In this document: positions 3,287 to 30,012 of the stretch, piece by piece
Layout: every line of letters begins with the position of its first letter
Numbering within the stretch: position 1 is the stretch's first letter
Source of the DNA: Streptomyces sp. NBC_01717
GTDB taxonomy: Bacteria > Actinomycetota > Actinomycetes > Streptomycetales > Streptomycetaceae
NCBI RefSeq assembly: GCF_036248255.1
Contig: NZ_CP109178.1
Coordinates: forward strand, 8,747,001 to 8,811,000
Direction: 5' to 3'
Length of the DNA stretch: 64,000 bases
The notes under the pieces: model-generated
What the model saw: only the letters and a program-made list of their open reading frames with translations
Database searches by the model: none
What the model was told of the DNA's origin: nothing
Made by a program: the position numbers and the translations under genes

Positions 3287-4122
3287 TGACGGCTTCCGCA
3301 ACATTGACTGCTCGGCCGGGAACCGTCCCCATTCCGTACCGGGTGGTGGAACGCGAGGCCGAGACGCCCGACACCGCCACGATCGTCCTGGAACCGGTCC
3401 GCTCGACCCTGCAGCCCTTCACTCCTGGGCAGTTCGCGATGGTGTACGCCTTCGGCATCGGCGACATCCCGTTGTCGGTCTCCGGGATCAACGGGCACCG
3501 ACTGACGCACACCGTCCGCACGGTCGGAGCGGTCTCCGGCGCGCTGCACGGGCTGCGGCGTGGTGACACGGTCGGAGTGCGCGGCCCGTTCGGCACCGGC
3601 TGGGAACTACCCGCCGCAGTTGGGAACGACCTGCTCGTCGTAGCTGGAGGTATCGGTCTGGCGCCGCTGCGCCCGCTCGTACGCGACGCGCTCGCCACCC
3701 CTGAGCGCTACGGACGGCTGAACGTTCTCATCGGAGCCCGCACGCCCCACGAGTTGCTCTACGCCGAGGACGTTCGCAGTTGGCAGTCGGCTGCCCGGGT
3801 CTTGACCACCGTGGACCGCGCGGACCCGCTGTGGCAGGGCGAGGTCGGCGTCGTCACGACCCTGCTCGACCGGGCCGCCTTCGATCCCGGGGCGTCGGCG
3901 GCGTTCATCTGCGGCCCCGAGCCGATGATGCGCGCCACCGCCGGCGAACTGGCGCACCGTGGCGTCGATCCGGAGCTGATTCGGGTCTCGCTGGAACGCA
4001 ATGTGCACTGTGCCACTGGCCACTGCGGGCACTGCCAGCTCGGCCCCCTCCTGCTCTGCCGCGACGGCCCCGTCGTCAGCTGGAACAAGGCCGCACACCT
4101 CCTCATGGTCAGGGAGTTGTGA
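3286..4122 (+). CDS. Hydrogenase gamma-type FAD/NAD(P)-binding subunit (HydG-like)
   Basis: A 278-residue ferredoxin-NADP reductase-like subunit. The FAD domain (about residues 10-100) contains [20 protein letters not shown], the nucleotide domain begins at [15 protein letters not shown] (about 112) and has FICGPEPMM (about 207), and a C-terminal [2Fe-2S] motif [17 protein letters not shown] is like that of PyrK/HydG. It would link hydrogen oxidation or production to NAD(P)H. The ATG at 3286 shares one base with the previous stop and is 6 bases after GGTGA; the GTG at 3283 is the alternative. Two bases separate its stop from the small-subunit start. Confidence 0.9.
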
Positions 4123-4123
4123 C

Positions 4124-4906
4124 ATGACCGGGAGCGATCGTCCGAAACTCGCCGTCTGGAAGTTCGCCTCCTGCGACGGATGCCAGCTCACTTTGCTGGA
4201 CTGCGAGGACGAACTCCTCGGCATCGCCGAGAGGGTGGAGATCTCACACTTCCTGGAGGCTTCCAGCACCGACGCGCCGGGCCCGTACGACCTGTCGCTG
4301 ATCGAGGGATCGGTGACCACCCAGCAGGACGTCGACCGGGCCCGGCACATCCGGGCCGTCTCCAAGCGGTTGGTCACCATCGGGGCGTGCGCGACCGCAG
4401 GTGGCGTCCAGGCGCTGCGCAACTACGCGGACGTCGCTGACTTCCAGGCTGTCGTCTATGCCAGACCGGACTACATCGAGACGCTCTCCACCTCCACACC
4501 CATCAGCGCCCATGTCCCGGTGGACTTCGAACTGCGCGGCTGCCCCATCGACCGAGGCCAACTGGTAGAGGTCATCACCGCCTACCTGGCCGAACGCAAA
4601 CCCGACGTACCCGCACACAGCGTCTGCTTCGAGTGTAAGCAGCGAGGCACGGTCTGCGTGACGGTGGCGCATGGTACACCCTGCCTGGGTCCGGTCACCC
4701 ACGCCGGATGCGGTGCGATCTGCCCAGCGTACGGGCGCGGCTGTTACGGCTGCTTCGGCCCGTCCAACTCGACCAACTTCCCCTCGTTCATTCCCCTCCT
4801 GCGCCGAGATGGCATGGACACTCTCGACGTGGTGAGGGTGCTGCGCACCTTCAATACCGCCGCTCCTGAGTTCGATGCGGCCTCCCGGAAGGAACTGGAA
4901 GAGTGA
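4124..4906 (+). CDS. [NiFe]-hydrogenase small subunit (HydD-like)
   Basis: A 260-residue small subunit carrying iron-sulfur clusters that relay electrons from the NiFe site. The proximal-cluster pair [11 protein letters not shown] lies at residues 17-27, followed by [16 protein letters not shown] and a C-terminal cysteine-rich run ([18 protein letters not shown]). It lacks a twin-arginine signal, as expected for a cytoplasmic group 3-type enzyme. ATG 4124 directly follows the gamma-subunit stop; the frame extends upstream within the gamma gene without similarity. Its stop overlaps the large-subunit GTG start (GTGA). Confidence 0.93.
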
Positions 4907-6270
4907 CCCACCGCGGCTCAAGGGTGTTGAAAGTCGGATCGCTCGCCCGCGTCGAGGGTGAGGGCGCACTGCATCTGCGCATGGGCGGCGGCGAGGTCGC
5001 AGAGGCCAGGCTGGCGATCTACGAACCGCCACGCTTCTTCGAGGCGTTCCTACGCGGACGCTCCTACGCCGAGCCGCCCGACATCACCTCCCGAGTGTGC
5101 GGGATCTGCCCGGTCGCGTACCAGATGAGCGCCTGCCGAGCGATCGAGGACGCCTGCGGCGTCGTCGTGGACGGGCAGTTGGCGGCGCTGCGCCGACTGC
5201 TCTACTGCGGCGAATGGATCGAGAGCCAGACGCTGCACATCTACCTTCTCCACGCACCCGACTTCTTCGGCTGCGACAGCGCCATCGACCTCGCACGCAC
5301 CCGGCGCGCCGACATCGAACGCGGCCTTCGGCTCAAGCAGGCCGGCAACGCGATCCTCGAACTGCTGGGCGGCCGGGCGATCCACCCGGTCAATGTCCGC
5401 CTCGGTGGCTTCCACCGCATCCCGAGCACGACCGAACTGCGCCCGCTGACCGACCGGTTGCGTCGGGCCCGGGACGACGCGGCCCAAACCGTCCGTTGGG
5501 TTGCCGGCTTCGAGTTCCCTGACGCCGGTTGTGATAACGACCTGTTCGCTCTGTCCGAGCCCGGCACCTATGCCATCGAGTCCGGCACCCCGACCGTCAT
5601 GCCCGCGCCGCACACCGGCTGCCTTCCCCCCGAATCCGACCGCGCGCTGCCCACTCGTACCTTTGGGGTCCACGAGTTCGGCGCCCACGTCGCCGAGAGC
5701 CAGGTACCCCACTCCACCGCCCTCCACTCCCTGCTGGACAACCGCCGCCATCTCACCGGCTCACTCGCCCGTTACGCCATCAGCGGCCGCTGGCTGTCCC
5801 CGATCGCCCTCCAGGCTGCCTACGACGCCGGACTCGGCGACCCCCGGCAGGGCACCGTCTGTCGAAACCCCTTCCGCAGCATCATCGTCCGAGCGGTTGA
5901 GGTGCTCTACGCGGTCGACGAGGCACTGCGGATCATCGACGCCTACGAACCCCCGCCGCACCCCTACGTCGACGTGCCCTCACGCGCCGGTACCGGGCAT
6001 GGGGCGACCGAGGCGCCGCGCGGTCTCTTGTACCACCGCTACACCCTCGACTCCGAAGGGATCGTCACCGACGCCAGCCTTGTCCCGCCGACCGCGCAGA
6101 ACCTGGGTGCGATCGAGGAGGACCTCCGCCGAATCGTGCAGGAACGCCTGGGAGACGGCGATCCCACCGACGCGGAGCTGACCGCCCTGTGCGAACGGGC
6201 GGTCCGCAATCACGACCCGTGCATCTCATGCTCGGCCCACTTCCTCAATCTCACCGTCGAGCGGACCTGA
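4903..6270 (+). CDS. [NiFe]-hydrogenase large (catalytic) subunit (HydA-like)
   Basis: A 455-residue catalytic subunit. The N-terminal nickel motif is [17 protein letters not shown] (residues 64-80) and the C-terminal one DPCISCSAH (438-446), giving the four cysteine ligands. The nine residues after His446 (FLNLTVERT) form the tail that the maturation protease at 990-1493 would remove. Together with beta, gamma and small subunits this is the beta-gamma-delta-alpha order of archaeal sulfhydrogenase operons, so I infer a bidirectional group 3b-like enzyme. No hypA-F maturation genes lie in the window, so they must be elsewhere. GTG start overlaps the small-subunit stop. Confidence 0.94.
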
Positions 6271-15654: not shown

Positions 15655-16389
15655 ATGGACGAGCCACGTAAGACCTCGCTACTGCACCGCCCCGACGGAG
15701 AGCCCGTACGGATCCTCGTCGTCGACGACGAGCCCGACGTCACGGACGTGCTGGCCGGGGTCATGACCGGGGAGGGCTGGCAGGTCCGCACCGCCGCAGA
15801 CGGCGCGACCGCGCTCACCACGGCCCGTGATTTCCGGCCCGATGCGGTGGTCCTGGACTGGATGCTGCCCGACCTCGACGGCCTGCACATCCTGCGGGCC
15901 CTTCGGCGCGAGGCACCCAGCGTGTGCGTGCTGTTTCTGACCGCCCGCGACGCCGTCGAGGACCGTATCGCCGGCATCACCGCCGGCGGCGACGACTACG
16001 TCACCAAGCCCTACAGCCTGGAAGAAGTCCTGGCCCGGCTGCGCGGGCTGCTCCGGCGGGCCGGGATGACCGCCGAGCCGGGCACGAACCGGCTCACCGT
16101 CGGCGACCTCGTCATGGACGAGGAAGCCAGGGAGGTCAGACGCGGCGGGACCAACGTCGACCTGTCCCGCACCGAGTTCGAACTCCTACGCTTCCTCATG
16201 CGCAACCCGCGCCGAGTGCTGTCCAAGGACCAGATCCTCGACCGGGTCTGGGCCTACGACTTCGGCGGACGCGCCCATGTCGTCGAGCTCTACATCAGCT
16301 ACCTGCGCAAGAAGATCGATGCCGGACGCACCCCGATGATCCACACCGTGCGCGGCGTCGGCTACGTCCTCAAGCCGGACTCCCCATGA
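15655..16389 (+). CDS. OmpR/PhoB-family response regulator
   Basis: A 244-residue two-domain regulator. The receiver (about residues 18-130) has the acidic pocket VDDEPD, phospho-acceptor Asp68 in LDWMLPDLDG, and the conserved lysine in VTKPYS. The winged-helix output domain (about 145-240) has DLSRTEFELLRFLMRN and RVWAYDF. ATG 15655 follows GAAGGA; an earlier ATG at 15631 has no good ribosome site. It overlaps the kinase gene (ATGA). Its divergence from the flavinylation operon makes that operon the first candidate target. Confidence 0.95.
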   Translation: MDEPRKTSLLHRPDGEPVRILVVDDEPDVTDVLAGVMTGEGWQVRTAADGATALTTARDFRPDAVVLDWMLPDLDGLHILRALRREAPSVCVLFLTARDAVEDRIAGITAGGDDYVTKPYSLEEVLARLRGLLRRAGMTAEPGTNRLTVGDLVMDEEAREVRRGGTNVDLSRTEFELLRFLMRNPRRVLSKDQILDRVWAYDFGGRAHVVELYISYLRKKIDAGRTPMIHTVRGVGYVLKPDSP

Positions 16390-17810
16390 GGCGCCTGCCG
16401 CCCCGCACCCTGCGCGGTCAGCTCACCGCCGGACTCGTCACTCTGCTCGCCCTCGCCTGCCTCGCCGTCGGCCTCACCACCGCCGTCGCTTTGAGAGGCT
16501 TCCTGATGGGGCGGCTGGACGAACAGCTCTCCGCCTCCGGCGGCCGGTTCGCCGCCAGCTTGGAACACGAGGCCGAACCCGACGCGGACAACCGTCCCGA
16601 CACGCGCGGTCAGGCCGAGGCGACCTTCGGTGCCCGCCTCCTGAACGGCACCGTCACCCAGGCGGCCGTCGTCGATGAAGCCACCGACCAACCCCTCCAC
16701 CTCACCCCCAGTGATCGCCGCGCCCTTGCGGGAATTCCCGTCGACGGAAGCGGGCACAGCATCCGCCTCTCCACACTGGGGGGCTATCGCGTCACGGCCG
16801 TCCAGGGCGACGACCAGGACATTCTGATCACCGGCCTGCCCCTGCACCCGGTGGAGGAGACCCTCCACCGCCTCGAAGCGGTCGAAGCCGTACTGTTCGG
16901 TGCCGCCCTCGTAGTCACCGGCATCGCCGGTGCCCTGTGGGTGCGGATCTCCCTGCACCCCCTCCAGCGGGTCACCGCCCGGGCAGCGGAGGTTGCCGGG
17001 CTGCCGCTCGCCAGCGGCGAGGTCGCCATGCCCGGGCCGCTTCCCGACACCGACCCGCGCACCGAAGTCGGCCAGGTCGGCACCGCCCTCAACCACATGC
17101 TCGGCCACGTCGAAGACGCCCTCACCCGACGTCAGGCCAGCGAGGAGAGGCTCCGGCACTTCGCCGCCGACGCCAGCCACGAGCTACGTACCCCCGTCGC
17201 CAACATCCGCGGCCACGCCGAACTCGCCCTGCGCCACCACGGCCCCGTCCCCGCCGAAGTCCGCCACGCCCTGGAACGCATCGATGCCGAGGCCCGGCGC
17301 ATGACTCGCCTTGTCGACGACCTGCTGCTCCTCGCCCGCCTGGACGCCGGACGCCCCCTCGAACACGAACCGGTCGATCTGACCCTGCTGATCCTGAACG
17401 CGACGGAGGACGCACGCGCCGCTGGCCCCGGCCACCGCTGGCTCCTCGACCTCCCCGAAGAACCTGTCACCGTCGCCGGAGACGCCCACCGGCTCCAGCA
17501 GGCCATCGGTAATCTCCTCGCCAATGCCCGTACCCACACCCCGCCGGACACCGACGTGACCATCGCCCTCACCACCGATCGGGCCAGCGTCTCCCTCAGC
17601 GTGAGCGACAACGGGCCAGGCATCCCCGAAGAGCTTCAGCCCGAGGTCTTCGGCCGCTTCGTACGTGCCGACCATGCCCGCTCCCGCAGTACGGGAAGCA
17701 CCGGTCTGGGCCTCGCCATCGTCCATGCCGTCATCACCGCCCACGGCGGAACCGCCACCGTCACCAGCAGTCCCGGACACACCACCTTCCGCCTCACACT
17801 CCCCAACTGA
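16386..17810 (+). CDS. Sensor histidine kinase
   Basis: A 474-residue membrane kinase: membrane helix 1 (about residues 12-36), an extracytoplasmic sensor loop of about 120 residues without a recognised fold, helix 2 (about 160-182), a HAMP linker, dimerisation domain with the phospho-His in ASHELRTPVANIRGHAEL (His about 264), and a HATPase domain with N-box IGNLLANARTHT and G-boxes SDNGPGIPEE and TGLGLAIVHAV. Translationally coupled to the response regulator by a 4-base overlap. A much longer open frame starting upstream inside the regulator gene is an artefact. Confidence 0.95.
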   Translation: MRRLPPRTLRGQLTAGLVTLLALACLAVGLTTAVALRGFLMGRLDEQLSASGGRFAASLEHEAEPDADNRPDTRGQAEATFGARLLNGTVTQAAVVDEATDQPLHLTPSDRRALAGIPVDGSGHSIRLSTLGGYRVTAVQGDDQDILITGLPLHPVEETLHRLEAVEAVLFGAALVVTGIAGALWVRISLHPLQRVTARAAEVAGLPLASGEVAMPGPLPDTDPRTEVGQVGTALNHMLGHVEDALTRRQASEERLRHFAADASHELRTPVANIRGHAELALRHHGPVPAEVRHALERIDAEARRMTRLVDDLLLLARLDAGRPLEHEPVDLTLLILNATEDARAAGPGHRWLLDLPEEPVTVAGDAHRLQQAIGNLLANARTHTPPDTDVTIALTTDRASVSLSVSDNGPGIPEELQPEVFGRFVRADHARSRSTGSTGLGLAIVHAVITAHGGTATVTSSPGHTTFRLTLPN

Positions 17811-17927: not shown

Positions 17928-20615
17928 TCAGCGCAGCCGACGCAGATACGGGTCGTGGGCATGGCGCGGGACGAGCCGGACGCGGGCGTCGAGCGTCGTG
18001 ATCCCGTGCGCCCCGGCGAGGACCGGGTTGAGGTCGACGTCGGCCAGCTGGGGCAGGTCCGAGGCCATTCGCGACAGCCGATGCAGCAGCTGCTCCAGAG
18101 CACCGAGGTCGGCGGTGGGACGGCCGGCGTAGCCGAACAGCAGCGGGGAGCAGCGTGGCGAGGTCAGCAGGTCGTGCGCGTCGAGCTCCGTCAGCGGGGC
18201 CAGCCGGGCCGCATGGTCGGCGAGCAGTTCGGTCGCCGTACCGCCCAGCCCGAACACCACGAGGGGTCCGAAGACCTCGTCCTGGACGACCCCGGCGAAC
18301 AGTTCGGTGCCGCGTTCGGCGAGTGGCTGGATGACCACCCCAGTCATCCGGTCACCGAACCGGGTGACCAGATCACGGTGAGCGGCTCTGATCTGGGAGG
18401 CGTTGTGCAGGTCCAGGTGGAGGGCGTGCTGCTCGCTCTTGTGCAGCAACCCTGGCCAGTAGGCCTTCATCACGACGCGCCCGTCAGGCCCTGCGAGTCG
18501 CTCGGCCGCGTCGACGGCCTCGTCCTCGTCCCGGGCCCACGCCCAGGGGATCTGAGGGATGCCATAGCAGGCGAGGAGCGCCGCGGTCGCCTGCGGATCC
18601 AGCCAGCCACCTTTCGGGTTGCCGTCCAGATATGCGGCGGCGAGATCCCGTGCGCGGCCGGTCTCCACGCTCGGCAAATCGGGTACTGAACTCGGTAGCC
18701 GGGAGAGCCAGTCGGCGCGGGCGGCGGTGTGGGCGAGGGCACGGGCGGCGTCCTCGGCGTCCGAGTACGCGGGGACGGTGCTCTCGTCGGCCGCCGGTAG
18801 AAGTTCGACACGGGCCGCCTGGGCAGGCAGGACCGCGACGACCGGACGGGGGAGCGGCTCTGGGGCCGATGTCAGGGCGCGTACCAGGTCCTCGCCGGTG
18901 GCCGCGGCGACAGCAGTGGGGACCAGCGCGACGAGCACGGCGTTCACGGCGCCGTGCCGGGCCAGGAGGCTGACGCACGCCTGTAGTTGCTTTTCGCCGA
19001 CCGCCGCAGTGACGTCCACGGGATTGGTGGCGGTGGCACCATCCGGCAGTAGGCCAAGAAGCTCGTCCACCAGGTCGGCGCTGAGCGCCGGGACGACGAG
19101 CCCGGCGTCCGTGCACGCGTCCGCGGCCAGGACTCCCGCTCCCCCTGCATTGCTCACAACAACGACCTTGGTACCTGCGGCCAGGGGCTGTGCATGCAGC
19201 AGGGCAGCGGTGTCCAGGAGCTCGCCGATGGTGCGGGTGGCAGTAATACCCGCCTGGGTGAACAGAGCCTGCCGGGTCATGGTCGGGGTGGCCGCCGCCG
19301 CGGTGTGGGAGGCTGCGGCGCGCCGGCCGGCCTCGGATCGGCCGGCGTCCACGGTGAGTATCGGCATTGCCCGGGCCACTCGGCGGGCAGTGCGCGAGAA
19401 GGCACGGGGGTTGCCGAAGGATTCCAGATGCAGCAGCGCCAGGTCCGTGTGCCCGTCGCTCTCCCACCACTGGAGCATGTCGTTACCGCTGACGTCGTAC
19501 TTGTCGCCGAGCGAGACGAAGCTGGACGCGCCGATGCCGAGGCGGGCGAGGCCGTCCAGCAGCGCGATGCCGACACCGCCTGATTGCACGGCGACTCCAG
19601 CGGTTCCCGGTCCGGGATGGCGGGCAGCGAAGGTCGCGTCGAGACGTACGCGGTCCTCCGTGTTGGCGAGCCCTAGGCAGTTGGGACCAACCAGTCGCAT
19701 ACCGTGGCGCCGGCACGAGCCCATCAGGCCCGCGGCCTGGTGCGTGTTCAGTCCCGCAGAGACCACGAGCAAGGCTCGCACGCCAGCCTTCCCGCACTCC
19801 TCTGCCACTCCGTCGACGTACGCGGCCGGTATGGCGATCACGGCCAGGTCAGGCACCTGCGGCAGATCGGCGACGGAGCTGTAGGCGTGTACTCCGGCGA
19901 CGGCTGCCGCTTCGGGGTGTACGGCGTAGACCAGCCCGGTGTAGGAGCTGGTGCGGATGTTCCTCAGGATCGCCCGCCCTACGGAGCCTGGCTTGCGTCC
20001 GGCACCGATCACCACAACGGCCCTCGGCCGCAGCAGCGGCTGCAGGCTGACGACGTCGGCGACCCGGCCCCGGATCTCGACGGCATTCAGGTAGGTGTTG
20101 TCCTCGGTGAGTTCGACCGTGCAGTGCACCTCAGGACCGTCGAAGTGACTGGTGACGCGCAGCCCCAGGTCGTGGAAGACCTTCAGCACATCGTGATTCT
20201 CGGCCAGGGCCTCCGCGCTGAACGCCGTCACCCCTGCCGTACGGGCCGCGTCCGCCAGGTGTTCCAGCAACAGCGTCGCCACACCCCGGCGGTGCCACCC
20301 ATCGGCGACGGCCACCGAGATCTCGGCGGTGCTTCCTGGTGGCAGGACCTCGTATTCCGCCAGGCCTACCAGATGTCCCGCGTATTCAGCTGCTAGCGCG
20401 CGGTAGCCAGGCCGCTCACCCGCTGCCACGCGGTCGGCGGCCTTCCCTGCGGAGGCGGGGTTGGCGGAGAAGAACCGCAGCCGCAGATTCTCCGGCGACA
20501 TCTCCTGGTACAGCCGTAGCACTTCTTCGCGGTCCGCCGACCCCGCCTGGCGAATCCGTACGGTGGTGCCGTCGCCTAGCAGTGCGTGCACCGGGGCTTC
20601 CTTGGTGCCGGTCAT
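17928..20615 (-). CDS. GNAT acetyltransferase fused to ADP-forming acyl-CoA synthetase-like protein
   Basis: An 895-residue fusion. Residues 10-165 are a GNAT acetyltransferase (MSPENLRLRFFSANP; GWHRRGVATLLLEHLADAAR is the acetyl-CoA loop). Then come a CoA-binding domain (about 185-285; VVVIGAGRKPGSVGRAIL), succinyl-CoA-ligase-like domains (about 300-610, with AASHTAAAATP), and a C-terminal ATP-grasp domain (about 670-895; GGWLDPQATAALLACYGIPQ). Related Pat-type proteins acetylate lysines of acyl-CoA synthetases; the ligase part often serves as a sensor. Here the GNAT domain is N-terminal. ATG 20615 has a GGAAGGAG site. A DosR-like palindrome lies at 20698. Confidence 0.9.
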   Translation of the reverse strand: MTGTKEAPVHALLGDGTTVRIRQAGSADREEVLRLYQEMSPENLRLRFFSANPASAGKAADRVAAGERPGYRALAAEYAGHLVGLAEYEVLPPGSTAEISVAVADGWHRRGVATLLLEHLADAARTAGVTAFSAEALAENHDVLKVFHDLGLRVTSHFDGPEVHCTVELTEDNTYLNAVEIRGRVADVVSLQPLLRPRAVVVIGAGRKPGSVGRAILRNIRTSSYTGLVYAVHPEAAAVAGVHAYSSVADLPQVPDLAVIAIPAAYVDGVAEECGKAGVRALLVVSAGLNTHQAAGLMGSCRRHGMRLVGPNCLGLANTEDRVRLDATFAARHPGPGTAGVAVQSGGVGIALLDGLARLGIGASSFVSLGDKYDVSGNDMLQWWESDGHTDLALLHLESFGNPRAFSRTARRVARAMPILTVDAGRSEAGRRAAASHTAAAATPTMTRQALFTQAGITATRTIGELLDTAALLHAQPLAAGTKVVVVSNAGGAGVLAADACTDAGLVVPALSADLVDELLGLLPDGATATNPVDVTAAVGEKQLQACVSLLARHGAVNAVLVALVPTAVAAATGEDLVRALTSAPEPLPRPVVAVLPAQAARVELLPAADESTVPAYSDAEDAARALAHTAARADWLSRLPSSVPDLPSVETGRARDLAAAYLDGNPKGGWLDPQATAALLACYGIPQIPWAWARDEDEAVDAAERLAGPDGRVVMKAYWPGLLHKSEQHALHLDLHNASQIRAAHRDLVTRFGDRMTGVVIQPLAERGTELFAGVVQDEVFGPLVVFGLGGTATELLADHAARLAPLTELDAHDLLTSPRCSPLLFGYAGRPTADLGALEQLLHRLSRMASDLPQLADVDLNPVLAGAHGITTLDARVRLVPRHAHDPYLRRLR

Positions 20616-20697
20616 CGCAAGATCTCCTTCCGGACGCTTCCTCTCCAGTGTTCGGCGCGTGCTCCGTGGGCCACAGGGGCTGAGCGGGTAAGCGGCG

Positions 20698-20711
20698 GGG
20701 CCGAGTGGCCC
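20698..20711. promoter_or_regulatory. DosR-box-like palindrome upstream of the GNAT/acyl-CoA ligase gene
   Basis: GGGCCGAGTGGCCC is the third copy of the 5-4-5 palindrome, 83 bases upstream of the ATG at 20615. I do not see a clear -10 element at the expected spacing, so the promoter geometry is less convincing than at 1589 and 6999. The surrounding gap 20616-21070 holds no gene. It contains a GGGGC-AA-GCCCC hairpin near 20935 that could terminate the transposition operon. Confidence 0.45.
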
Positions 20712-21070
20712 CAGTGCCCCGCCTGTGCGGTCCACACCGAGGCGCATTGGCCGGGCGGGCTTGGTAGACGTGGCAGCCGTGTCTGCGGAGAGGCTCACCC
20801 GGGGTGATCGTTAGGAGCACCGGTCGAGCCGAAGCCAGGCTGTCGGTGGCGCCTGGCCGGATGGGGCATGCAGTACCGGTGAAACTATCCGCACACGTTC
20901 CCAAGATTCGAGAAGGGTGTTCCCGGGGCAGTCTGGGGCAAGCCCCTGATCTGCTGCTTCGTAATTTTCATCAAGGCCCGCCGGTGTCCTGGGCGGCGCA
21001 CACAGCAGCTCCACCGCGGAACACCGCCCAGGTGAAAGGCACTGTCAAGTGTCGGGTTCAGTGGCCGATC

Positions 21071-22963
21071 TCAGCAGGTTTCGGCCGGGTACGGCTGGAT
21101 TGGACCATGGTCGAAGGTAGTGGCGAGATGCTCGGCGTAGTGGTCGATTCGGCGCAGGAGCTCGATTTTGCTGCCCTTGCGGTTGGCCGGTGTCACGAGC
21201 TGGGCGATCGACGCGGTCAGGGTCTGGGTGCTCTGCTGGGCGGCGCGCAGGGCGGTGGTCATGGGACTGTGCAGGTGGTCACCCTGGGTGACCACCGTCC
21301 AGATCAGGACGGTACCGGTGTCCCCGGTGGGAGAGCTGGCGCCGCAGCCGAGCCGGAGGTTTTGGGTCAGCACGGCCCAGTCGGAGTCGGGAAGCCGCCA
21401 GGGGGCCAGGGCACGGCGGCGTTCGGCGTAGTTCACACGGTCGGCGAGGGCGTCGAGGTCGTGGGCCACGGCCTCGACGGCATGGTCGAATACTGGCCAC
21501 AGCTTGCCGGGAGAGAGTTCGCGCTTGAGGACCTTGAGGCTCTGCTGGGCGGTGTTCCATGGGATCGCCAGAGTCTCGGCGCAATCGGGCCAGGCGCCTC
21601 CGGCCGCCATCTCGACCAGTTTGAGTGACGCTGCCCGGCGTAGGTGGCGGGCAGTCCAACTGCCCAAAGGTGCCAGTTGTCGAGTGACCTCGGCAAAGTG
21701 GGCGTCGAACCAGAGTGTGGGCAGGAGCGCGGGGACCTCTTCGGAAGTGAAGCCGTCGGCGCGTGAGGGCAACCGGAGGCCGGATGAGCGGTGCCCACCC
21801 GCGTGGTAAAAGCCGTTGGTCTTGCGGGCGACGGCACGGGCCATGGCCGGGGTGAAGTCCCACCGGCGGAAGGCTGCCGCCGTGTTGGCGGGAATACGTT
21901 CGAACGCGGCTTCTGCCAAGGGCTGGACACGGTCTCGCAGGGCGGTTTCGTCGGCAGGGTCGTTGCCGAGCAGACTCTTGGCGGCCAGCAGGAGGGCTCC
22001 GCGTAGGGAACTGTCGGCTGGGGCGGCCCAGCGCGAGGTACGCCCCGGCCCTGGCCCGGGCCTGCCGGGGACGGTTGGCGCGGCGGATGCCACCACGTGC
22101 AGGTCGACCAGGGCGGCCAGGGCCGGGGAGCCGAGCAGGTCCGCGCCGGTTGGCCAGCTCAGCGTGATCAGGTGGGCGGCAGCGACCAGGTCGGTGAAGA
22201 AGGAGCCGGGTGCTCCGGGGGAAGAACTCCCGGGCGTGAGATGCCGGTCGATCAGCTGCTGCAGCGCAAGCAGGGACCGGAGATCGCCCGCCGTCAGGGT
22301 GCCGCTGCGGCTGGGGACCTGGTCCAGACGCGCCCCGCAGGTGCCCTTGGCCCACGCGGGGTGGGAGTGGCCCTTTGGACGTTGGCGGCATTGGGCGGGG
22401 TGAAGGTTGGCGAGTGAGTGCTGTGTGATCAGGCCGAGACGCTCGCCGCTGGCGTGCGCGTTGGCCGGGGTGTCGCAGCCGGGGCAGGCGGAGGTGAGCA
22501 GGCTGTGATGGTTGAGGCAGGCGAAGACGACGGGGAGGTGCCAGCGCAGCTTCCAGGCGCCGCCGAGGGCCTGTTGGGCCGGACTGCTGTCGCCGGCTAG
22601 GCACGAGGGGCAGTAGCGGCTGGAGAGGTCCCAGGCCCAGTGCCGCTGCGCGGCGGCGTGGTTGCGGCCGAAAGCCGCGGTGCCCTTGGCCAGCGGCGGG
22701 TAGGCGTCGGCCAGGTCAGCCAGGGTGAGCGCACGGGCTTCGCCGACGGTCAGGCGAGCGGCGCGGGCCAGGACGACGGCCCGGTCCTCGGGCAGCCCGG
22801 CAAGGTACCCGGCAGGCACCCGCCGTTGCGCGGTAACGAGTCCGCACAGGTGGGCGACGCGGCTTGGAGGCAGGTTCAGGCGGTAGGACAGCCGCAGCAG
22901 GAAGCCGCGCAGGGATTCCTCTGGCAGTGGGGCGAGGCTCCTGGCCAAGGCGCGGCCGGTCAT
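21071..22963 (-). CDS. tniQ: TniQ/TnsD-family target-selection protein (second copy)
   Basis: A 630-residue TniQ-domain protein, last gene of the transposition operon. The N-terminal segment ARSLAPLPEESLRGFLLRLS matches TniQ, followed by a zinc-ribbon pair YCPSCLAG and CLNHHSLLTSACPGC (about residues 110-155). The long C-terminal part probably includes DNA-binding helices that recognise the insertion site, as in TnsD. It is only distantly similar to the upstream TniQ, though the N-terminal layout is the same. ATG 22963 overlaps that gene's stop (ATGA); the frame is open for 102 codons upstream without similarity. Confidence 0.85.
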   Translation of the reverse strand: MTGRALARSLAPLPEESLRGFLLRLSYRLNLPPSRVAHLCGLVTAQRRVPAGYLAGLPEDRAVVLARAARLTVGEARALTLADLADAYPPLAKGTAAFGRNHAAAQRHWAWDLSSRYCPSCLAGDSSPAQQALGGAWKLRWHLPVVFACLNHHSLLTSACPGCDTPANAHASGERLGLITQHSLANLHPAQCRQRPKGHSHPAWAKGTCGARLDQVPSRSGTLTAGDLRSLLALQQLIDRHLTPGSSSPGAPGSFFTDLVAAAHLITLSWPTGADLLGSPALAALVDLHVVASAAPTVPGRPGPGPGRTSRWAAPADSSLRGALLLAAKSLLGNDPADETALRDRVQPLAEAAFERIPANTAAAFRRWDFTPAMARAVARKTNGFYHAGGHRSSGLRLPSRADGFTSEEVPALLPTLWFDAHFAEVTRQLAPLGSWTARHLRRAASLKLVEMAAGGAWPDCAETLAIPWNTAQQSLKVLKRELSPGKLWPVFDHAVEAVAHDLDALADRVNYAERRRALAPWRLPDSDWAVLTQNLRLGCGASSPTGDTGTVLIWTVVTQGDHLHSPMTTALRAAQQSTQTLTASIAQLVTPANRKGSKIELLRRIDHYAEHLATTFDHGPIQPYPAETC

Positions 22964-24837
22964 TGCGGTGCTTCCTGCACGGCCACGGAGATCGGCAGAT
23001 CGAGTCCTTGGTCGCAGGCCGTCGCGAGGCGTTCTGCGTGCCGTTGGAGGCGGTCGAGGAGCATGCGCCGTGACCGGCGGCAACGGTCGGGGTTGTACAG
23101 CACGGTGACCTGACGGACCAGGTTTTCCGTCGTGGGAGCGGTACGTCGGCTGGTCAGGGCAGGGCTGCAGAGGTAGCTGGCCTGGTTCACGGCGCTCCAG
23201 ACGACGGCTTCGCCCAGGCGCGGGTCCCCCTTCTGTGCCAGTTGTTCGAGACGGGGAAGTCCAGCGCACAGCCGCTGCCAGTCCTCAGTGGTCAGCTTCC
23301 AGTCCGCCGTCAGCCGCCGCCGACGGGCGTAGTCGATGCGCTTGTCGCAGGCGTCGAGGTCCCGGGCCACCCGGTCGACCGACTCTTCGAACGCCAGCCA
23401 TAGGCCGGAGTCCGCCAGCTCGCGGCCCAGGACGTTCATGGTGCGCTTGGCGCTCCCTGCAGGAATCCCCAGGGCAGGTGCGCAGTCGCGCCATTTCCTG
23501 CCGCATGCCAGCTCGGCGAGCCGGAGTGACCCGCCCTGCCTCAGTTGATGCTCCAACCGTCTGGTCATCCGGGGCATCTTCTGTGTCAGAGCCGGGAAAT
23601 GTACGTCGAGCCAGCTTTGCGGCAGAAGGGGTGGGACCTCCTCGATCCGGAACAGGTGACCGGGCAAGGAGTACCGATTGGCGACGCGCCGCTGGAAGCC
23701 GTGGATCCGCGGCGCGGCGGCGCGCAACAGAACAGCAGAGACGTCGCTGCGGGTGAACAGCTTGTCGGCGATCGAGGTCGATCGCCGGTACGCCTCGCGG
23801 GTCAGCGGCTCGATGCGCTCGCGCAGCGACGCCAGAGTTCGGTTGCCCAGGACGGTGTCGGCGGCCACGAGGAGGGCCGCGCTCCGGGCGGGTTCGCCGG
23901 GTGCGGACCGTCGCGCAGCGAACCCGGCGCCGGACCGGGCTCCCGAGTCGGAGATGTGCGCGTCGACCAGGTCGGCGAGGGCCGAGGACGGCAGGAAGGC
24001 GGCGCCCAGGGGCCAGGTCAGCGTGACGAGGTGTGCTGTCAGGACCAGGTCGGGGAAGAACGAGCGGTCCGCCGCTCCAGCGCTCCCACGCTGCTGCCCG
24101 GACTCCAGGTTCAGGTTCAGGTAGTGCTGCAGGGAAAGGACGCGTTCCAGATCCTCCTCGTGCAGAACAGTTGTGGAGGCGGCGGGCACGTCGAGGCGTC
24201 CGCCGCACGGTGTGTTGCGGGCACGCGGCGCGCGGGGTAGGCCGGGGGCGGGACTGCGGCACTGCAGCGGGTGCAGGCCCGGGACGTGCGGGAGCTGGAG
24301 CAGGTTGTAGCGACGGATGACGCGGCCGGTCAAGGGCTGCGCGCAGTGCGGGCAGGCGCACTCCAGCAACTGGCGGTGTACGGTGCAGGCGAAGACGATT
24401 GGCAGGTGCCAGCGTAACTGCCAGGGGCCGCCGAAGGCGGACTGTATCGTGCTGCCATCGCCGGCCAGGCACTGTGGGCAGTAGCGACCGACCGGGTTCG
24501 TGGCCCAGTTGACGTGGGATTTGAGCCCGGGGGCCGAGGTGGCGCAGGCCCGCAGTTTGGCCAGCGGGGGGTATGAGGCCGTGAACCCCCGAAGGGTGAG
24601 GCCCTCGACCTCCTCGTCGGTCAGGTGCGCGGCGCGGGCGAACTTGCGTGCGGTGTCGGCGGGTAGTCCGCGCAGTTGCTCCTGGGGGATGCTGTCGCTG
24701 CGGCAGGCTAGCCCGCACAGGGTCGCTACACGGTGGGGAGTCAGCCTCAGCCGGTAGGACAGCCGCAGCAGGAAGCCGGCCATGGACTCTCCCGGTAGGG
24801 GGGCAAGACTTCGGGCCAACGGCCCCGGCTGGGTCAT
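22960..24837 (-). CDS. tniQ: TniQ/TnsD-family target-selection protein (first copy)
   Basis: A 625-residue TniQ-domain protein beginning ARSLAPLPGESMAGFLLRLS, with zinc-ribbon motifs YCPQCLAGDGS and CTVHRQLLECACPHC. The C-terminal half has helix-rich repeats, including the GRKWRDCAPALGIPAGSAKR segment that also has a counterpart in the second TniQ (GGAWPDCAETLAIPWNTAQQ). Both copies therefore come from an old duplication and may act as a pair or recognise different targets. Starts at ATG 24837, overlapping the ATPase gene by 4 bases. Confidence 0.86.
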   Translation of the reverse strand: MTQPGPLARSLAPLPGESMAGFLLRLSYRLRLTPHRVATLCGLACRSDSIPQEQLRGLPADTARKFARAAHLTDEEVEGLTLRGFTASYPPLAKLRACATSAPGLKSHVNWATNPVGRYCPQCLAGDGSTIQSAFGGPWQLRWHLPIVFACTVHRQLLECACPHCAQPLTGRVIRRYNLLQLPHVPGLHPLQCRSPAPGLPRAPRARNTPCGGRLDVPAASTTVLHEEDLERVLSLQHYLNLNLESGQQRGSAGAADRSFFPDLVLTAHLVTLTWPLGAAFLPSSALADLVDAHISDSGARSGAGFAARRSAPGEPARSAALLVAADTVLGNRTLASLRERIEPLTREAYRRSTSIADKLFTRSDVSAVLLRAAAPRIHGFQRRVANRYSLPGHLFRIEEVPPLLPQSWLDVHFPALTQKMPRMTRRLEHQLRQGGSLRLAELACGRKWRDCAPALGIPAGSAKRTMNVLGRELADSGLWLAFEESVDRVARDLDACDKRIDYARRRRLTADWKLTTEDWQRLCAGLPRLEQLAQKGDPRLGEAVVWSAVNQASYLCSPALTSRRTAPTTENLVRQVTVLYNPDRCRRSRRMLLDRLQRHAERLATACDQGLDLPISVAVQEAPQ

Positions 24838-26096
24838 ACGGCCGACTCCGCTGCCGGGCCGTCGTCGTCGAAGACGGTGTTGCGACTCCGCGCCTTTTGG
24901 GGCGGCTTGGAGCGCACCGGCGGGATCACCGGCTGCTCACCCGATTCCGCGTCCAGGTCCGCCAGGTCGGTGGGGGAGATCGCGCAGCGGTCCAGGAGCG
25001 TGCGGGTCAGCCGCTCGCTGCCATTCTCGATAGCCAGCCGACAGCCCCTCTGAATGAGCTTCTCCAGCAGCCCGACGACTCCGTTGGTGCGTTGGAAAAG
25101 GTACTCCGGCATGTCCTGCTCGGTCAGCATGCCTGCTGTGTCGTGCAGCAGCCGCACGCACTTCTCCAGCCCCCGCAGATGGACGATCCAGGCGTTGATT
25201 CCGGCCGGGGTCTCGTAGCTGAACGGGTCCAGGTGGACCAGTTCGAAGCGGCGCTCGTGCTGGGTAGCGGCCAGGTCGTTGGGGCTGCGGCCGCGGTCCT
25301 TGATAGGCGGGAAGACCCACTGCTTGGTGGCCGGGTCCAGGCGCCCCCGGCGCAACAGGCCGGAGGTGGGGATGCCGACGCCGACCAGGATCAGGGTCAC
25401 AGTCATGCTCATCATCTCCAGCAGCAGGTCCAAGACGTCCTGGTCGGCCTCCCGATGGAGCTTGAGACGGGTGATGTCGTCGATCACCAGCGCTTTGGTG
25501 CCGTGCTCGGCGAGGGCGTCGTGGACAGTGCGGACCAGGTCCTCCAGGCGCATTCCCTTGTAGTCCTCGCCGAAGTAGTCCAGGATCCGCTTGCAGGTGG
25601 AGATCGGCGTCGCCTTGACCGGGCAGCGCACATAGGCGACCGGCGCGACCAGGTCCCTGGTGCCCATGACGGCGCCCGGGTTGAGGTAGTTGTTCACCTT
25701 CAGCCACTCCTCCTCGAAAGCTGCCAGCGCCTCGCAGACCGTCTCGGTCTTGCCCTGCGCTCCACCGCCGTTGACCATGACCCCGGTGCGGATACCGGCC
25801 TTGTGACTGAACGCCCCGTCCTCGATCCGGGCCTTCACCGTCCACCCCACCGCCTCGCTCATCGGAGTGCCCTGCACCGGCAGACTGCTGTGAGTGGCCA
25901 GCCGGTGCAGGTTGTGGATATGGCGCCGACGCGGAGTCAGATCGGCGTACTGGGCCATCGTCAGCACGGGGGCCGGCACGAACAGGTCGCGGGTGCACCG
26001 CCAGCGCTGGAACCCCTCGACCCGGGTGCGGTCGATCGGGGGACCGGGCAGGAACGAGGCCCCGGCTCGGGGTTCTTGGTCCTTCAAGTCGCTCAT
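24834..26096 (-). CDS. tniB: TniB/TnsC-like AAA+ ATPase
   Basis: A 420-residue ATPase that in Tn7-like systems links target selection (TniQ) to the transposase. Walker A is NGGGAQGKTET (about residues 109-119) and Walker B KALVIDDITR (about 201-210); a sensor segment LILVGVGIPTSGLL follows. The N-terminal 100 residues may contact TnsB and the C-terminal tail is basic and disordered. Two adjacent ATGs are possible (26099 and 26096); the second is better spaced from AGGGAG. Eight bases after the tnsB stop. Confidence 0.88.
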   Translation of the reverse strand: MSDLKDQEPRAGASFLPGPPIDRTRVEGFQRWRCTRDLFVPAPVLTMAQYADLTPRRRHIHNLHRLATHSSLPVQGTPMSEAVGWTVKARIEDGAFSHKAGIRTGVMVNGGGAQGKTETVCEALAAFEEEWLKVNNYLNPGAVMGTRDLVAPVAYVRCPVKATPISTCKRILDYFGEDYKGMRLEDLVRTVHDALAEHGTKALVIDDITRLKLHREADQDVLDLLLEMMSMTVTLILVGVGIPTSGLLRRGRLDPATKQWVFPPIKDRGRSPNDLAATQHERRFELVHLDPFSYETPAGINAWIVHLRGLEKCVRLLHDTAGMLTEQDMPEYLFQRTNGVVGLLEKLIQRGCRLAIENGSERLTRTLLDRCAISPTDLADLDAESGEQPVIPPVRSKPPQKARSRNTVFDDDGPAAESAV

Positions 26097-26104
26097 CATG
26101 CTCC

Positions 26105-28438
26105 CTAGCGCCCGTCCCGGGCGTCTGCGTGGTCCGCGTCTGTGTCTGCGTTTTCGGTTTCGTGTTCGTCCGGTAGGGCCAGCAGACTGCGTTCGCGCAG
26201 CCGCTGGCTGAGCACTGGGGGCGCGGCGGTCTCCTCCGGGGTTGCCGCTTCGCGCCTGCGTCGGCGCTCGCCGTCGACGGCGGCTTGGCCCTGCTCGGCG
26301 CGCTCGCGCCACTGCAGCGGCACCACATTGCTCGGCTCAATGTCGCTGACGTCATGGGGCGCGGGGACGCCGACCGGGGCGGGCACGGCGGTCGCCAGGG
26401 CAGGTTTAGGCCGGTCGGCTGCTGCCGCTGCCGCCTGGGCCTCCTCGCGGGAGTGCTCGGTGCGCTGCGCTTTTGTCAGCCGGGTCGGCCACTGGTCCAC
26501 CGGTACCCGGCCGCCGATCAGGTCCAGCAGCAAGGGCAGCAGTTCCGCGTCGGACTTCGGCGCCAGCCCCCGGCTGCGCAGGTCTCGCAGCACCTGCCGC
26601 ACCCGTGCGTCGCTGAAGGCCGGCACCCGTCCCTCCTCGGGCAGGCCGACCCAGCGCAACTGGTGCCAGTCGTGCGTCAGCGGGTCCTGGAAGTAGACGA
26701 AGCACGGATCACGGGGATCGCGGTGGATCACGTACTTGTTCTTCGAGACCCCGCCCCGCCCCGAGAGACCGAAGCGGTAGTCATCCAGGGCGGACCCGTC
26801 GTACCACAAATTCTTGATCTTCACGCCCCGCCTACCGTGGATCATCACCCGGTGCGAGGGCAGAAGCTGGTAGTACAGCTCAGCCGGCGGGATCTCCAGC
26901 GCGAAGCCGCTCTGCGCCATGGACGCGGCGAACAGGGAATTAGGGCTGTGGTCCCCGGACGGATCCCAACTGGGCGCGTAGGAGGCGAACTTGCGGTTCT
27001 GCCAGATCTTCACGATCCAGGACGCGATCAGGTGCTCCATCTCCGTGACGGTCAGGCACGCGTCCCCCTCGGGGTCCACCCCGCGGTCCGCGGTGTCGAC
27101 TCCCTGGTAGCCCGGCAGGATCCGGAACAGCAGCGACTGGATCGCCCCGAACGCACGCTCCACCGCGTGCTTGTCAGTCGGACGAAGAACCCGGCTGGGG
27201 CGGATGTTCGCCCCGATCACCCGCTGGACCTCGATCAGATAGTGGTTCTTGTACACCGAGCCGTGGTCGGTGGTGACGGTCTCCGGCGAGAAGAACGGCA
27301 GCCCGGCCACCTTGTGTCCGCTGAACTCGGCGACCATCGTGGCGGGTACGCCGGGATAGGCCCACTCCATCTCCTCGCCCCAGTCCGGGCGCATCGGCAG
27401 CGGCATCATCACGTCCCGCAGCACCATGGCGATGTCCACCGAGGTGTCGGAGACCAGGGTCAGCCGGAACGCGACGATCGAGTGCGTGTATACATCCAGG
27501 GCCAGACTCAGATGAACCGAGACCGGGTCGCCGAACATCTCCTCTCGCACCTTCACCGGCAGCACCGTCGTGTCCAGGGCCACCACCTGCCCTGGCCGCG
27601 ACGCCACCACATGCCGGCCCGTCGCATGCTGCTGCATCCGGGCCGCCGAGCGCGCGTAGCGGCTGCGGGAACCCGAGGAGCCGAACCACTCCAGCCACAA
27701 CTGCCGGAGCGTGTCGTAGGCGGGAACGGGCTCCTTCTCCCCGTACTCCTCGCGAACGTACTGCTTGATCAAGCGCTCGCGGTCCTTCGCCGTGAGCTTG
27801 GAGCGGTGCAGAGTCTCCTGCCGCACCACGAACAATGCCTCCCGCACAGCCGGAGTGACGCGCCGTCCAGTTGCCCCCCGCAGCCAGCGGTCGTCTGCAC
27901 AGCCCACCGGACCGAAACGATGGCGGTCGCGGTCCCAACGGACCAGGGTCCGGTAGCTGACCTTGTCCATGCCCTGCTCCACCGCCAGGCCGGGGTTCCG
28001 CGCCGTGGCCTGCCGTAACTCCCGGGCCTTGGCCTGGCGCCGCTGCGTCAGCGTCGTGACCGCCGGGTCGTACTGCGGCTTGGGCTCCTCCGGCAGTGCC
28101 ATCAGGTAGTCGCCGCTGCGATACCCGGTCTCGACCTCGCGCAGGTGTTCCATCCGAAGCATGACCAGCCGCTGCTTCTCCGGCGGGAGGTCGAACATCG
28201 CCTTCGGCTGCCGGCCGCGATTGGCCGCGGGTAGGTCTCTCCGAGTCTTGGTCGAGGGCCGGAAACTCGGGTGGTGCATCAGCTGGCGCACCGAGGTCTT
28301 CCAGGGCTCTCCTTCGGCCGGGACCAGGACGACCTTCCCTACCTGGGGCTCGAACGCCGACACCGTCCACACGGCGCCGTTCACGATGAACTCGCTTCCT
28401 GGGGAGAGGTCCCAGGCGATCGGTCCGGTCACCGTCAC
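26105..28438 (-). CDS. tnsB: TnsB-like DDE transposase with Mu-type C-terminal domain
   Basis: A 777-residue integrase-fold transposase. The catalytic triad is visible: Asp289 (VVALDTTVLPV), Asp391 (TVTTDHGSVYKN) and Glu427 (DKHAVERAFGAIQ). N-terminal residues 100-270 hold the helix-turn-helix DNA-binding domains, a beta-barrel follows the core (about 560-640), and the tail after 670 is charged and probably contacts the ATPase. It would join the 3' ends of the element to target DNA. The GTG at 28438 overlaps the tnsA stop (GTGA), matching the coupling of the other genes. Confidence 0.9.
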   Translation of the reverse strand: MTVTGPIAWDLSPGSEFIVNGAVWTVSAFEPQVGKVVLVPAEGEPWKTSVRQLMHHPSFRPSTKTRRDLPAANRGRQPKAMFDLPPEKQRLVMLRMEHLREVETGYRSGDYLMALPEEPKPQYDPAVTTLTQRRQAKARELRQATARNPGLAVEQGMDKVSYRTLVRWDRDRHRFGPVGCADDRWLRGATGRRVTPAVREALFVVRQETLHRSKLTAKDRERLIKQYVREEYGEKEPVPAYDTLRQLWLEWFGSSGSRSRYARSAARMQQHATGRHVVASRPGQVVALDTTVLPVKVREEMFGDPVSVHLSLALDVYTHSIVAFRLTLVSDTSVDIAMVLRDVMMPLPMRPDWGEEMEWAYPGVPATMVAEFSGHKVAGLPFFSPETVTTDHGSVYKNHYLIEVQRVIGANIRPSRVLRPTDKHAVERAFGAIQSLLFRILPGYQGVDTADRGVDPEGDACLTVTEMEHLIASWIVKIWQNRKFASYAPSWDPSGDHSPNSLFAASMAQSGFALEIPPAELYYQLLPSHRVMIHGRRGVKIKNLWYDGSALDDYRFGLSGRGGVSKNKYVIHRDPRDPCFVYFQDPLTHDWHQLRWVGLPEEGRVPAFSDARVRQVLRDLRSRGLAPKSDAELLPLLLDLIGGRVPVDQWPTRLTKAQRTEHSREEAQAAAAAADRPKPALATAVPAPVGVPAPHDVSDIEPSNVVPLQWRERAEQGQAAVDGERRRRREAATPEETAAPPVLSQRLRERSLLALPDEHETENADTDADHADARDGR

Positions 28439-29322
28439 CACCCCGTCCGCAGCCGGCGCCCTGCCTCGGGGGCTAGACGGACCGTGCTCGCGTCCGCCAA
28501 GGGGCCCGACATGTCCAATCCCAGCCGTCGGTGCCACAGCAGGTGGATCGCCTGGGCTCGGCCGACCGCCGGAACGCTGCACTGCTGCACCAGCGACCCG
28601 AACGGCATCGGCCCTTGGGCAGCCGCCGACAGCAGTTGCTGCTGCAGGCCCAGGCGGTCGGACAGCGGCCGCCTTCCAACGGAGAAGCTGTCGACCAGGC
28701 CCACCGCGTGCCGCCGCCAGCCCGACACCACGCTGTAGTTCCACCCGACGGTCAGCGCGACCTCCGCCGAGGCGGCGAACTTGACCTCGTCTTCGGGGGC
28801 GATGCGCTCGGCCGGGCGCACATCTACCAACCAGGGCGTCCCGCGTGTCAATAGCAGGAAGTCGGGAATGTGGTCGACGGCTCCGTCTGTGGTCAGGAAC
28901 CGCAGCCGGAAGGGCTGAGCCAGGGCTTCGATCAGCCGACCGGCGAAGTCGGCGGCCAGCAGCAGCAACTCCTCCTCGAAACTCTCGAACCCGTGGTGCC
29001 GATCGGTACTGACCAGGTATTCGAGCCCCGGTCGGTGCCACTGCCCGGTCCGCCAGGTGAAGCGGCGTACAGGCACAGTGCGCGCCATGTCCACCCCGTT
29101 CAGATCCCGGACCGGGCAGGTCACCAGCTCGCGCCCGAGCCGCCAGGACGTGGTCCAGCGGGAGCTCCACCCCGAGGGCATGGCCAACCGCTCGACGGCA
29201 TCGGGGCTGAGAGCGTACGGGCGCGCGAGATCATGCAGCGTCGACACATCCGACCAGCGCGTCGCAGGAAGCGTGACGTCGACCGGCACGCTCTCGTGCC
29301 GTACAGAGGCCAGCGAAAGCAC
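28435..29322 (-). CDS. tnsA: TnsA-like transposase endonuclease subunit
   Basis: A 295-residue protein of the actinobacterial TnsA-like family, expected to cut the 5' strands so the element moves by cut-and-paste. The nuclease core includes acidic residues in GFESFEEELLLLA (113-125), Asp154 in HIPDFLLL and Asp167-Val-Arg169 in WLVDVRP. The usual lysine of the PD-(D/E)xK site is an arginine here. The C-terminal region (about 230-295) is helical and could bind the ATPase. GTG start at 29322 follows GGTGGAG closely. Confidence 0.83.
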   Translation of the reverse strand: MLSLASVRHESVPVDVTLPATRWSDVSTLHDLARPYALSPDAVERLAMPSGWSSRWTTSWRLGRELVTCPVRDLNGVDMARTVPVRRFTWRTGQWHRPGLEYLVSTDRHHGFESFEEELLLLAADFAGRLIEALAQPFRLRFLTTDGAVDHIPDFLLLTRGTPWLVDVRPAERIAPEDEVKFAASAEVALTVGWNYSVVSGWRRHAVGLVDSFSVGRRPLSDRLGLQQQLLSAAAQGPMPFGSLVQQCSVPAVGRAQAIHLLWHRRLGLDMSGPLADASTVRLAPEAGRRLRTGW

Positions 29323-29701
29323 AGCTCCACCCTTTTATCCGAACCCAACTGAAGAGGTTTCCGGCGAGGAGCATGGTGGAGTCGCAGCCGAGCGGCAAAT
29401 CGCGTCAAATGCACCAGTGTTGAGCTTCTGCAGAGCGCCTGTAGTAGCAATACCGGGCCCCTGCTGTCCTGTTGTGGACTCGGATTGGATCCGCGTGGAC
29501 TTGGGAAGAGGTGCAGGCAGGGAAACTCCGCACCGAGGGTTCGCCCGATCGGATGAACGATGCCATCGATAGGGAGCCGAAGGAATCTGCGCGGTCCTAC
29601 AAGCGCAAGAACCTGTACCCAGGTGCCAAGAAGACTCCGCAGCCGGCCCGAGGTCGTGCTGATGCCATCTGGCAAAAGCCGAGGTGGTTGGGGCGCGTCA
29701 A

Positions 29702-30012
29702 TGTCAACTACCGTCAGCGGTCACACGGGTTGTGACCAGGCTTTTCAGTTGGCACAAAAGCAGGCTGGTCGGCACAGGGCGTTGCGCTCGTTCTGGTCGG
29801 CGCCGAGCTTGTCTCTGCGTACGCTTGGGGGCGCTGAACTGCCCCTTTGGCCGGCCGGTCACGGCTCGGACGCTTCGTGAATGCTCGTCCTGGGGACGAC
29901 GGCGGGCACTGAGGCGTACGGCGGCAGGTTGTGGTCGCAGGCCACCCCCCGGCAGTGTCAACGAGAAAGCCCGGAAACAGGCTGTGACGAGGGTTTGTAG
30001 TTGGTGCGAAAG
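29702..30012 (+). repeat. Two ~58-bp imperfect direct repeats, candidate transposase-binding sites
   Basis: Copy A is 29702-29760 and copy B 29956-30012. Both begin TGTCAAC and about 28 bases later continue with TGTGACSAGG, then AGTTGGYRCRAAAG; the last 34 bases (29727-29760 and 29979-30012) match at 25 positions. They lie in the otherwise gene-free 29323-30059 region upstream of tnsA, where Tn7-type elements carry TnsB-binding repeats. The element end itself is not identified. Confidence 0.5.

Follow-up and report, generated by a model that had tools for sequence, protein, structure and literature searches.

We found that a five-gene operon in Streptomyces sp. NBC_01717 is the engine of a 68-kb Tn7-like transposon, in which two TniQ proteins would serve as independent, swappable TnsD-like homing selectors rather than as a heteromer. 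We give this reading as a whole a probability of about two in three. The analysed stretch of DNA, called the window below, comprises 64,000 nt (NZ_CP109178.1 8,747,001-8,811,000; the chromosome is coded G000:C1). The operon occupies window positions 21071-29322, with all five genes on the minus strand in the order tnsA-tnsB-tniB-tniQ-tniQ, and the gene coordinates bear out the order and place given by a sequence-only reading of the same DNA.

The tnsA-like endonuclease gene (28435-29322, minus strand) scores 121.4 bits against the NCBIfam actinobacterial TnsA model NF033179, above its cut-off of 110, and only E=0.014 against Pfam PF08722. Its acidic residues are kept in 16 aligned sequences, save for a D154 to N change at locus L013. 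The tnsB gene (26105-28438, minus) encodes a DDE transposase, identified by an rve match that lies below its cut-off (E=0.0016) together with the DDE residues: D391 and E427 are found in all 17 aligned sequences, whereas at D289 L013 has an E and L133 lacks the residue. The tniB/tnsC gene (24834-26099, minus) encodes an AAA+ regulator with Walker motifs (AAA_22, E=2e-9; the score for the TniB Pfam family, 22.1 bits, is just short of that family's cut-off of 22.4). The two tniQ genes both match PF06527 at about 1e-18 and encode Qa (22960-24837, minus; 625 aa), a proposed selector, and Qb (21071-22963, minus; 630 aa), the putative selector of the 3′ end of an acyl-CoA dehydrogenase gene (ACAD). 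All five window genes have unbroken reading frames, and the Walker motifs of TniB and the catalytic residues of TnsA and TnsB are intact. The 4-base overlaps noted earlier for the whole operon hold for tnsA/tnsB, tniB/Qa and Qa/Qb, but not for tnsB/tniB, since tniB with its ATG at 26099 begins 5 bases past tnsB. A DDE TnsB, a TnsA-type endonuclease, a TnsC/TniB AAA+ protein and TniQ/TnsD-family selectors are all present, as in Tn7-like elements.

The ends of the element were located by comparing relatives, as a motif upstream of the window tnsA recurs at ends in other genomes. We call the tnsA-side end the A-end and the end far from tnsA the D-end. The A-end, TGTGACCGCTGACGGTAGTTGACAT, lies at 29701-29725 (minus strand; 1 mismatch to the pattern, with homologous ends in relatives) with its tip at 29725, and a pattern search of the window's own genome placed the D-end at G000:C1:8708691, 38 kb left of the window. 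The element therefore measures 68,035 bp (G000:C1:8708691-8776725). Window positions 1-29725 (minus) are wholly inside it, and what had been described as the transposition module is its tnsA-side part only. Both flanks, read directly, carry a perfect 5-bp duplication, CGGGT, one copy immediately before G000:C1:8708691 and the other at 29726-29730. With a slash marking the tip, the junctions read ...CGCTGA-CGGGT/TGTGACTAGG... at the D-end and ...GGTCACA/CGGGT... at the A-end. The stop codon of the neighbouring gene, which we take from its translation to be ACAD, lies 5 bp before the start of the D-end. We searched for an orthologous empty site of the window element and found none. TGT...ACA ends with a 5-bp duplication are present in the window element, its relatives and the plasmid elements described below; as for candidate TnsB sites, there are two strong repeats at the D-end, and one together with a weak one at the A-end.

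The duplication at the A-end is adjoined by the D-end tip of an older element (29731-29755, plus strand, 0 mismatches). Two possible relic tips follow, one A-type-like (29955-29979, minus, 3 mismatches) and one D-type (29983-30007, plus, 2 mismatches); the window search gave 6 tip matches for 2.4 expected by chance, and a 3-mismatch match is weak by itself. Abutting tips like those at 29731 are seen in relatives too, and in genome G292 CTCGC occurs both next to the ACAD-sited D-end and next to the A-ends of a tandem pair of elements. Taken together, the older tip, the abutments in relatives and the tandem elements indicate that the same gene end was struck more than once.

We scanned 29 ORFs inside the element (from a rough list of 41) against Pfam. 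The cargo families include universal stress proteins, CBS-BON proteins, a response regulator, a histidine kinase, pyruvate phosphate dikinase, a P-type cation ATPase, a family 65 glycoside hydrolase, a beta-CASP nuclease and a multicopper oxidase. A nickel hydrogenase-type operon (NAD-binding reductase, small subunit and large subunit) lies at 3283-6270 on the plus strand, and a gene for an acetyltransferase plus CoA-ligase protein (17928-20798, minus) directly downstream of Qb. This cargo (window 1-20798 and loci L102 and L103) looks like an oxygen-stress/dormancy island on a site-specific transposon, and resembles what we take to be the gene set of this kind under OsdR control in Streptomyces. 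In the histidine kinase gene (15924-17810), the stretch 16500-17810 has a 94% identical copy about 190 kb off in the same arm (G000:C1:8574732-8576042). No CRISPR-like array (exact 20-mers, at least three, 45-90 bp apart) was found in the 68,035 bp, and no Cas family among the 29 scanned ORFs. As far as these scans reach, the element has neither the Cas effector nor the CRISPR array of a CRISPR-associated transposon (CAST), and its description as Tn7-like and CRISPR-free stands on this search and on the family matches (PF06527, NF033179).

Qa and Qb are 44% identical over nearly their full length (418.6 bits), so the earlier statement that they have little sequence in common is wrong. Across 22 aligned TniQs the conserved Cys/His positions in the zinc region do not vary, and the predicted structures of Qa and Qb both match TnsD and TniQ structures, so that, as far as models tell, neither protein appears to lack the TniQ fold. 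We named clades Qa to Qe in our own tree of 39 TniQ rows; these are not published names. Clade Qb consists of 13 proteins, a single one for each of 13 elements, and clade Qa of 14 rows, one per element, with 3, 3 and 2 rows in Qc, Qd and Qe. Most of the complete close relatives carry exactly two TniQs, the second gene of which may sit upstream of tnsA, even divergently, or about 88 kb away. At three more distant elements (L014, L015 and L016), the second TniQ gene lies several kb downstream of the first.

The clade of the TniQ is linked to the insertion site. Nine of the ten Qb elements with a known D-end flank are at ACAD: the window element, L008, and those of G456 (L010), G115 (L143), G125 (L145), G248 (L146), G292 (L144), G253 (L147) and G108 (L139 and L138). 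The exception, on contig C36 of G266 (L142; Qb + Qc), is at the 3′ part of fxlM. Three further Qb elements without a located far end (G022, L132; L004; G085, L133) are outside this count. By comparison, none of the four intact elements without Qb whose target gene is known is at ACAD: that of G068 (L136; Qe + Qa) sits at a PotD-like gene, and those of the plasmids pFRL3, pFRL4 and pFRL6 (Qc alone) at fxlM. We left out contig C165 of G266 (Qc alone), the D-end of which abuts another element's tip, and L007 and G146, the far ends of which were not found. For the association of Qb with ACAD the Fisher p is 0.005, uncorrected for relatedness, with the caveats that the nine in ten are not phylogenetically independent and that, of the four cases without Qb, the three on plasmids are copies of a single element. 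This correlation suggests that Qb directs insertion to one gene end.

A competing explanation is that Qa or its counterparts read ACAD and that Qb has the role of the other selector or of an accessory. A Qa-clade TniQ is also present in 7 of the 9 ACAD elements with Qb, and because of this overlap only two elements exclude Qa as reader of ACAD, those of G125 and G248, which are at ACAD with Qb + Qd and no Qa, and whose Qbs are 98% identical (one lineage). In G179 (Qa clade) and G262 (a broken TniQ, outside the tree, with its best score to Qa), both at ACAD, a Qa-like gene is the only one seen near an end, which is not in Qb's favour; no tns genes of either were found in the stretches fetched. 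Conversely, G068 has Qa and no Qb, and sits elsewhere than ACAD. We therefore regard a Qa-type reader of ACAD as unlikely. No Qa-specific insertion site was identified among the elements compared, and the correlation of each TniQ with its own site, put forward as a check by the sequence-only reading, is accordingly present for Qb with ACAD and for Qc with fxlM on plasmids, but not for Qa.

The plasmid elements provide the case of Qc. A TnsB search of 72,556 plasmids gave 140 records with a match, of which the best three, with a TnsB identity of 76.5%, are linear plasmids: pFRL3, pFRL4 and pFRL6. On each of them lies a nearly identical element made up of tnsABC-tniQ and genes for phosphate uptake and arsenic, and in all three its D-end faces fxlM (annotated 'methyltransferase, FxLD system') at the 3′ end of that gene. 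Three different duplications (GGTGG, GCCGA and GTGCC) and the divergence of the sequences at the A-end tip indicate separate insertions on the three plasmids. The sole TniQ of this element is about 80% identical to Qc of G266 C36, and in its pFRL3 version it groups within clade Qc. The distance from the CTCGACAAG codons of fxlM to the tip beyond them is 74 bp in pFRL3 and pFRL4 and 26 bp in G266 C36, where the tip is 48 bp nearer. We looked for the A-end and duplication of G266 C36 and did not find them; because of this and of the tip offset, it is chiefly the plasmids that support the link between Qc and fxlM.

The tniQ genes act like interchangeable cassettes, and such exchange is strongly supported by comparisons of sequences and trees. 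Among L010, L139, L142 and L143, TnsB is 91-95%, TniB 92-97% and Qb 78-92% identical, compared with only 38-42% for the second TniQs (27 pairs compared; L139 was paired with the distant TniQ in L138). L142, whose second TniQ is Qc, is the one of these four at fxlM. For G022 and G292, TnsB is 66% and Qb 81% identical. The Qb tree conflicts with the TnsB tree, and the Qb data reject two supported TnsB groups: forcing together the Qbs of L144-L147 costs 182 log units (p-AU 2e-5), and forcing together those of the window, L132, L004 and L008 costs 248 (p-AU 2e-113), for groups picked after the trees were seen and with some rows on long branches.

This bears on the suggestion that the two TniQs may work as a heteromer. 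Such an obligate heteromer, in which Qb and a partner jointly bind one site and the partner gene is merely fast-diverging, is in keeping with the adjacency of Qa and Qb with a 4-base overlap in the window and with the presence of exactly two TniQs in most of the complete close relatives. Nevertheless, the single-TniQ element, close kin by its TnsB, has moved between plasmids, the partner of Qb can be Qa, Qd or Qc, and the second gene may lie upstream of tnsA or far from the operon. We found no support for the heteromer and consider it quite improbable. The alternative suggestion of separate target selectors is supported by the clade-site link and by cassette swapping: Qb probably picks ACAD, Qc probably picks fxlM, and the two TniQs would not need each other. 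Decay is recurrent in the family (tniB of G085 is split by about 5.5 kb, and L013 and L006 have frame breaks in tns genes), yet a dead element with the operon as a mere relic in the chromosome arm is very improbable, as none of the five window genes has a broken frame, their catalytic residues are conserved and the CGGGT duplication is still perfect.

To describe the sites more broadly, we took a census of tips in Streptomyces genomes. Of 392 genomes, 67 have one or more end-like matches with up to 3 mismatches; D-type, A-type and third-family ends are pooled in this count. A reversed pattern, used as control, gave 0 in the genomes listed. The census covers 65 distinct D-type tips with flanks read, from most but not all matched places. 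Of these, 37 are 5-8 bp past the ACAD stop codon (5 bp, n=24; 6 bp, n=4; 7 bp, n=7; 8 bp, n=2), 9 follow a gene for a PotD-like solute-binding protein and 9 adjoin another tip (both by rule), and 10 are elsewhere. One more tip, L169, resembles the PotD-sited tips by eye but was placed by the rule with those that adjoin another tip. None of 18 A-type tips is at ACAD or PotD; the D-end faces the target gene in the ACAD, PotD and fxlM cases. Insertion at one fixed place would have spoken against the sequence-only reading, and the sites do vary: ACAD, the PotD-like gene, fxlM and others.

Matching, non-abutting 5-bp duplications were found in seven more genomes (G248, G292, G253, G108, G456, G101 and G173), with the two ends on different contigs in G456 and G173, and contig C165 of G266 has the matching duplication GCACC. 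The flanks read in G262 and G098 share no 5 bp, and several genomes gave offset matches only. The element of G108 spans 167,958 bp tip to tip. This apparent 168-kb element (L138-L140, G108:C1:10305139-10473096) has matching CTGTG duplications, one tniQ beside its D-end and a tnsABC-Qb operon about 88 kb away. The PotD-sited loci L237-L245 have good ends and no tns or tniQ gene in the stretch fetched; they may be non-autonomous or decayed islands, perhaps moved in trans.

Two other types of ends were observed. A different Tn7-like type, TGTGACTGAGC...AGTTGGCC (up to 2 mismatches), is found in the same chromosome as the window as a facing pair about 2.95 kb apart (G000:C1:2423003-2425957) and an abutting pair (232502-232555). 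Beyond the D- and A-type tips, the census has 8 tips of a third end family, TG[TC]GAC[CG]GAG...TTTTAGTTGGCAC. This family was noted at loci L106, L123, L152, L179, L180, L188, L197, L205 and L217, with several copies near TTTATGCAA-like sequence; four are in genomes with more distant TniQ hits (G180, G281, G338 and G256).

For the independent-selector reading we infer all of the biochemistry, against a background of genes, ends, 5-bp duplications, repeat insertion at the same gene end, predicted TniQ folds and tree conflict that come from the sequence. Qb would bind the conserved 3′ end of ACAD and recruit TniB, an AAA+ relay, which would in turn recruit TnsAB. TnsA and TnsB would cut and join, and the element would be cut and pasted about 5 bp past the ACAD stop codon. 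Another TniQ could be used in Qb's stead for another site, and Qa may be a second selector for a further site, acting separately from Qb. The weak points of this reading are the site of Qa, the offset in G266 and the shared ancestry of the counted elements. We also propose, tentatively and at somewhat less than even odds, a two-slot, protein-only retargeting: one slot would home to a conserved chromosomal gene end (Qb to ACAD, or Qe instead), and the other would hold a fast-swapped cassette opening new sites, including plasmid genes such as fxlM.

Like Tn7, in which TnsD directs insertion to glmS and TnsE to plasmids, the window family has two selectors, a heteromeric transposase, a 5-bp duplication and homing just past a conserved gene. 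It differs from Tn7 in that both selectors are TniQ/TnsD-like. In Tn7 the end facing the target gene is on the tnsA side, whereas here it is the D-end. CASTs of types I-B1, I-B2, I-D and parE-type I-F3 with TniQ + TnsD likewise have two TniQ-family proteins and two pathways, as outlined in PMC11406308, but the window element is without a Cas family (29 ORFs scanned) and without a CRISPR-like array.

To describe such systems as poorly known is justified for this family in Streptomyces, yet loci with dual TniQ/TnsD already form a recognised class: passages of Faure et al. 2023 (PMC10293859) report 998 of them, many without Cas, with two TniQ/TnsD proteins beside TnsC, and propose duplication and division of labour. 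According to these passages, one protein is usually >400 aa and the other substantially smaller, whereas both are >600 aa in the window family; and only few loci hinted at tniQ exchange between transposons, compared with the strongly supported exchange here. Part of PMC11406308 notes tniQ exchange in one branch of Tn7-like elements. The string 'acyl-coa' has 0 occurrences in the main text of PMC10293859. Judged by host, the family probably belongs to the Actinobacteria-dominated TnsB clade 2 of Benler et al. 2021 (PMC8649781), of which, according to that paper, no member had been characterised experimentally; its passages on the subject list acyl-CoA dehydrogenase as cargo rather than as an attachment site. 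A class of CRISPR-free dual-TniQ elements is thus already known, to which this analysis adds a large-TniQ family, mapped homing sites and swapped selectors.

These elements are natural experiments, in which near-identical transposases occur with different selectors, one of them at a different gene; thereby the DNA code of large TnsD-like proteins becomes testable. Ends, duplications and homing sites are also mapped here for an actinobacterial family of Tn7-like elements, and for genome engineering in its hosts it is important to be able to move gene islands of 30 to 170 kb. If the two-slot reading is true, plasmid-borne sites such as fxlM would carry the element between cells, and cassette exchange would serve as new spacers do for CRISPR-guided transposons.
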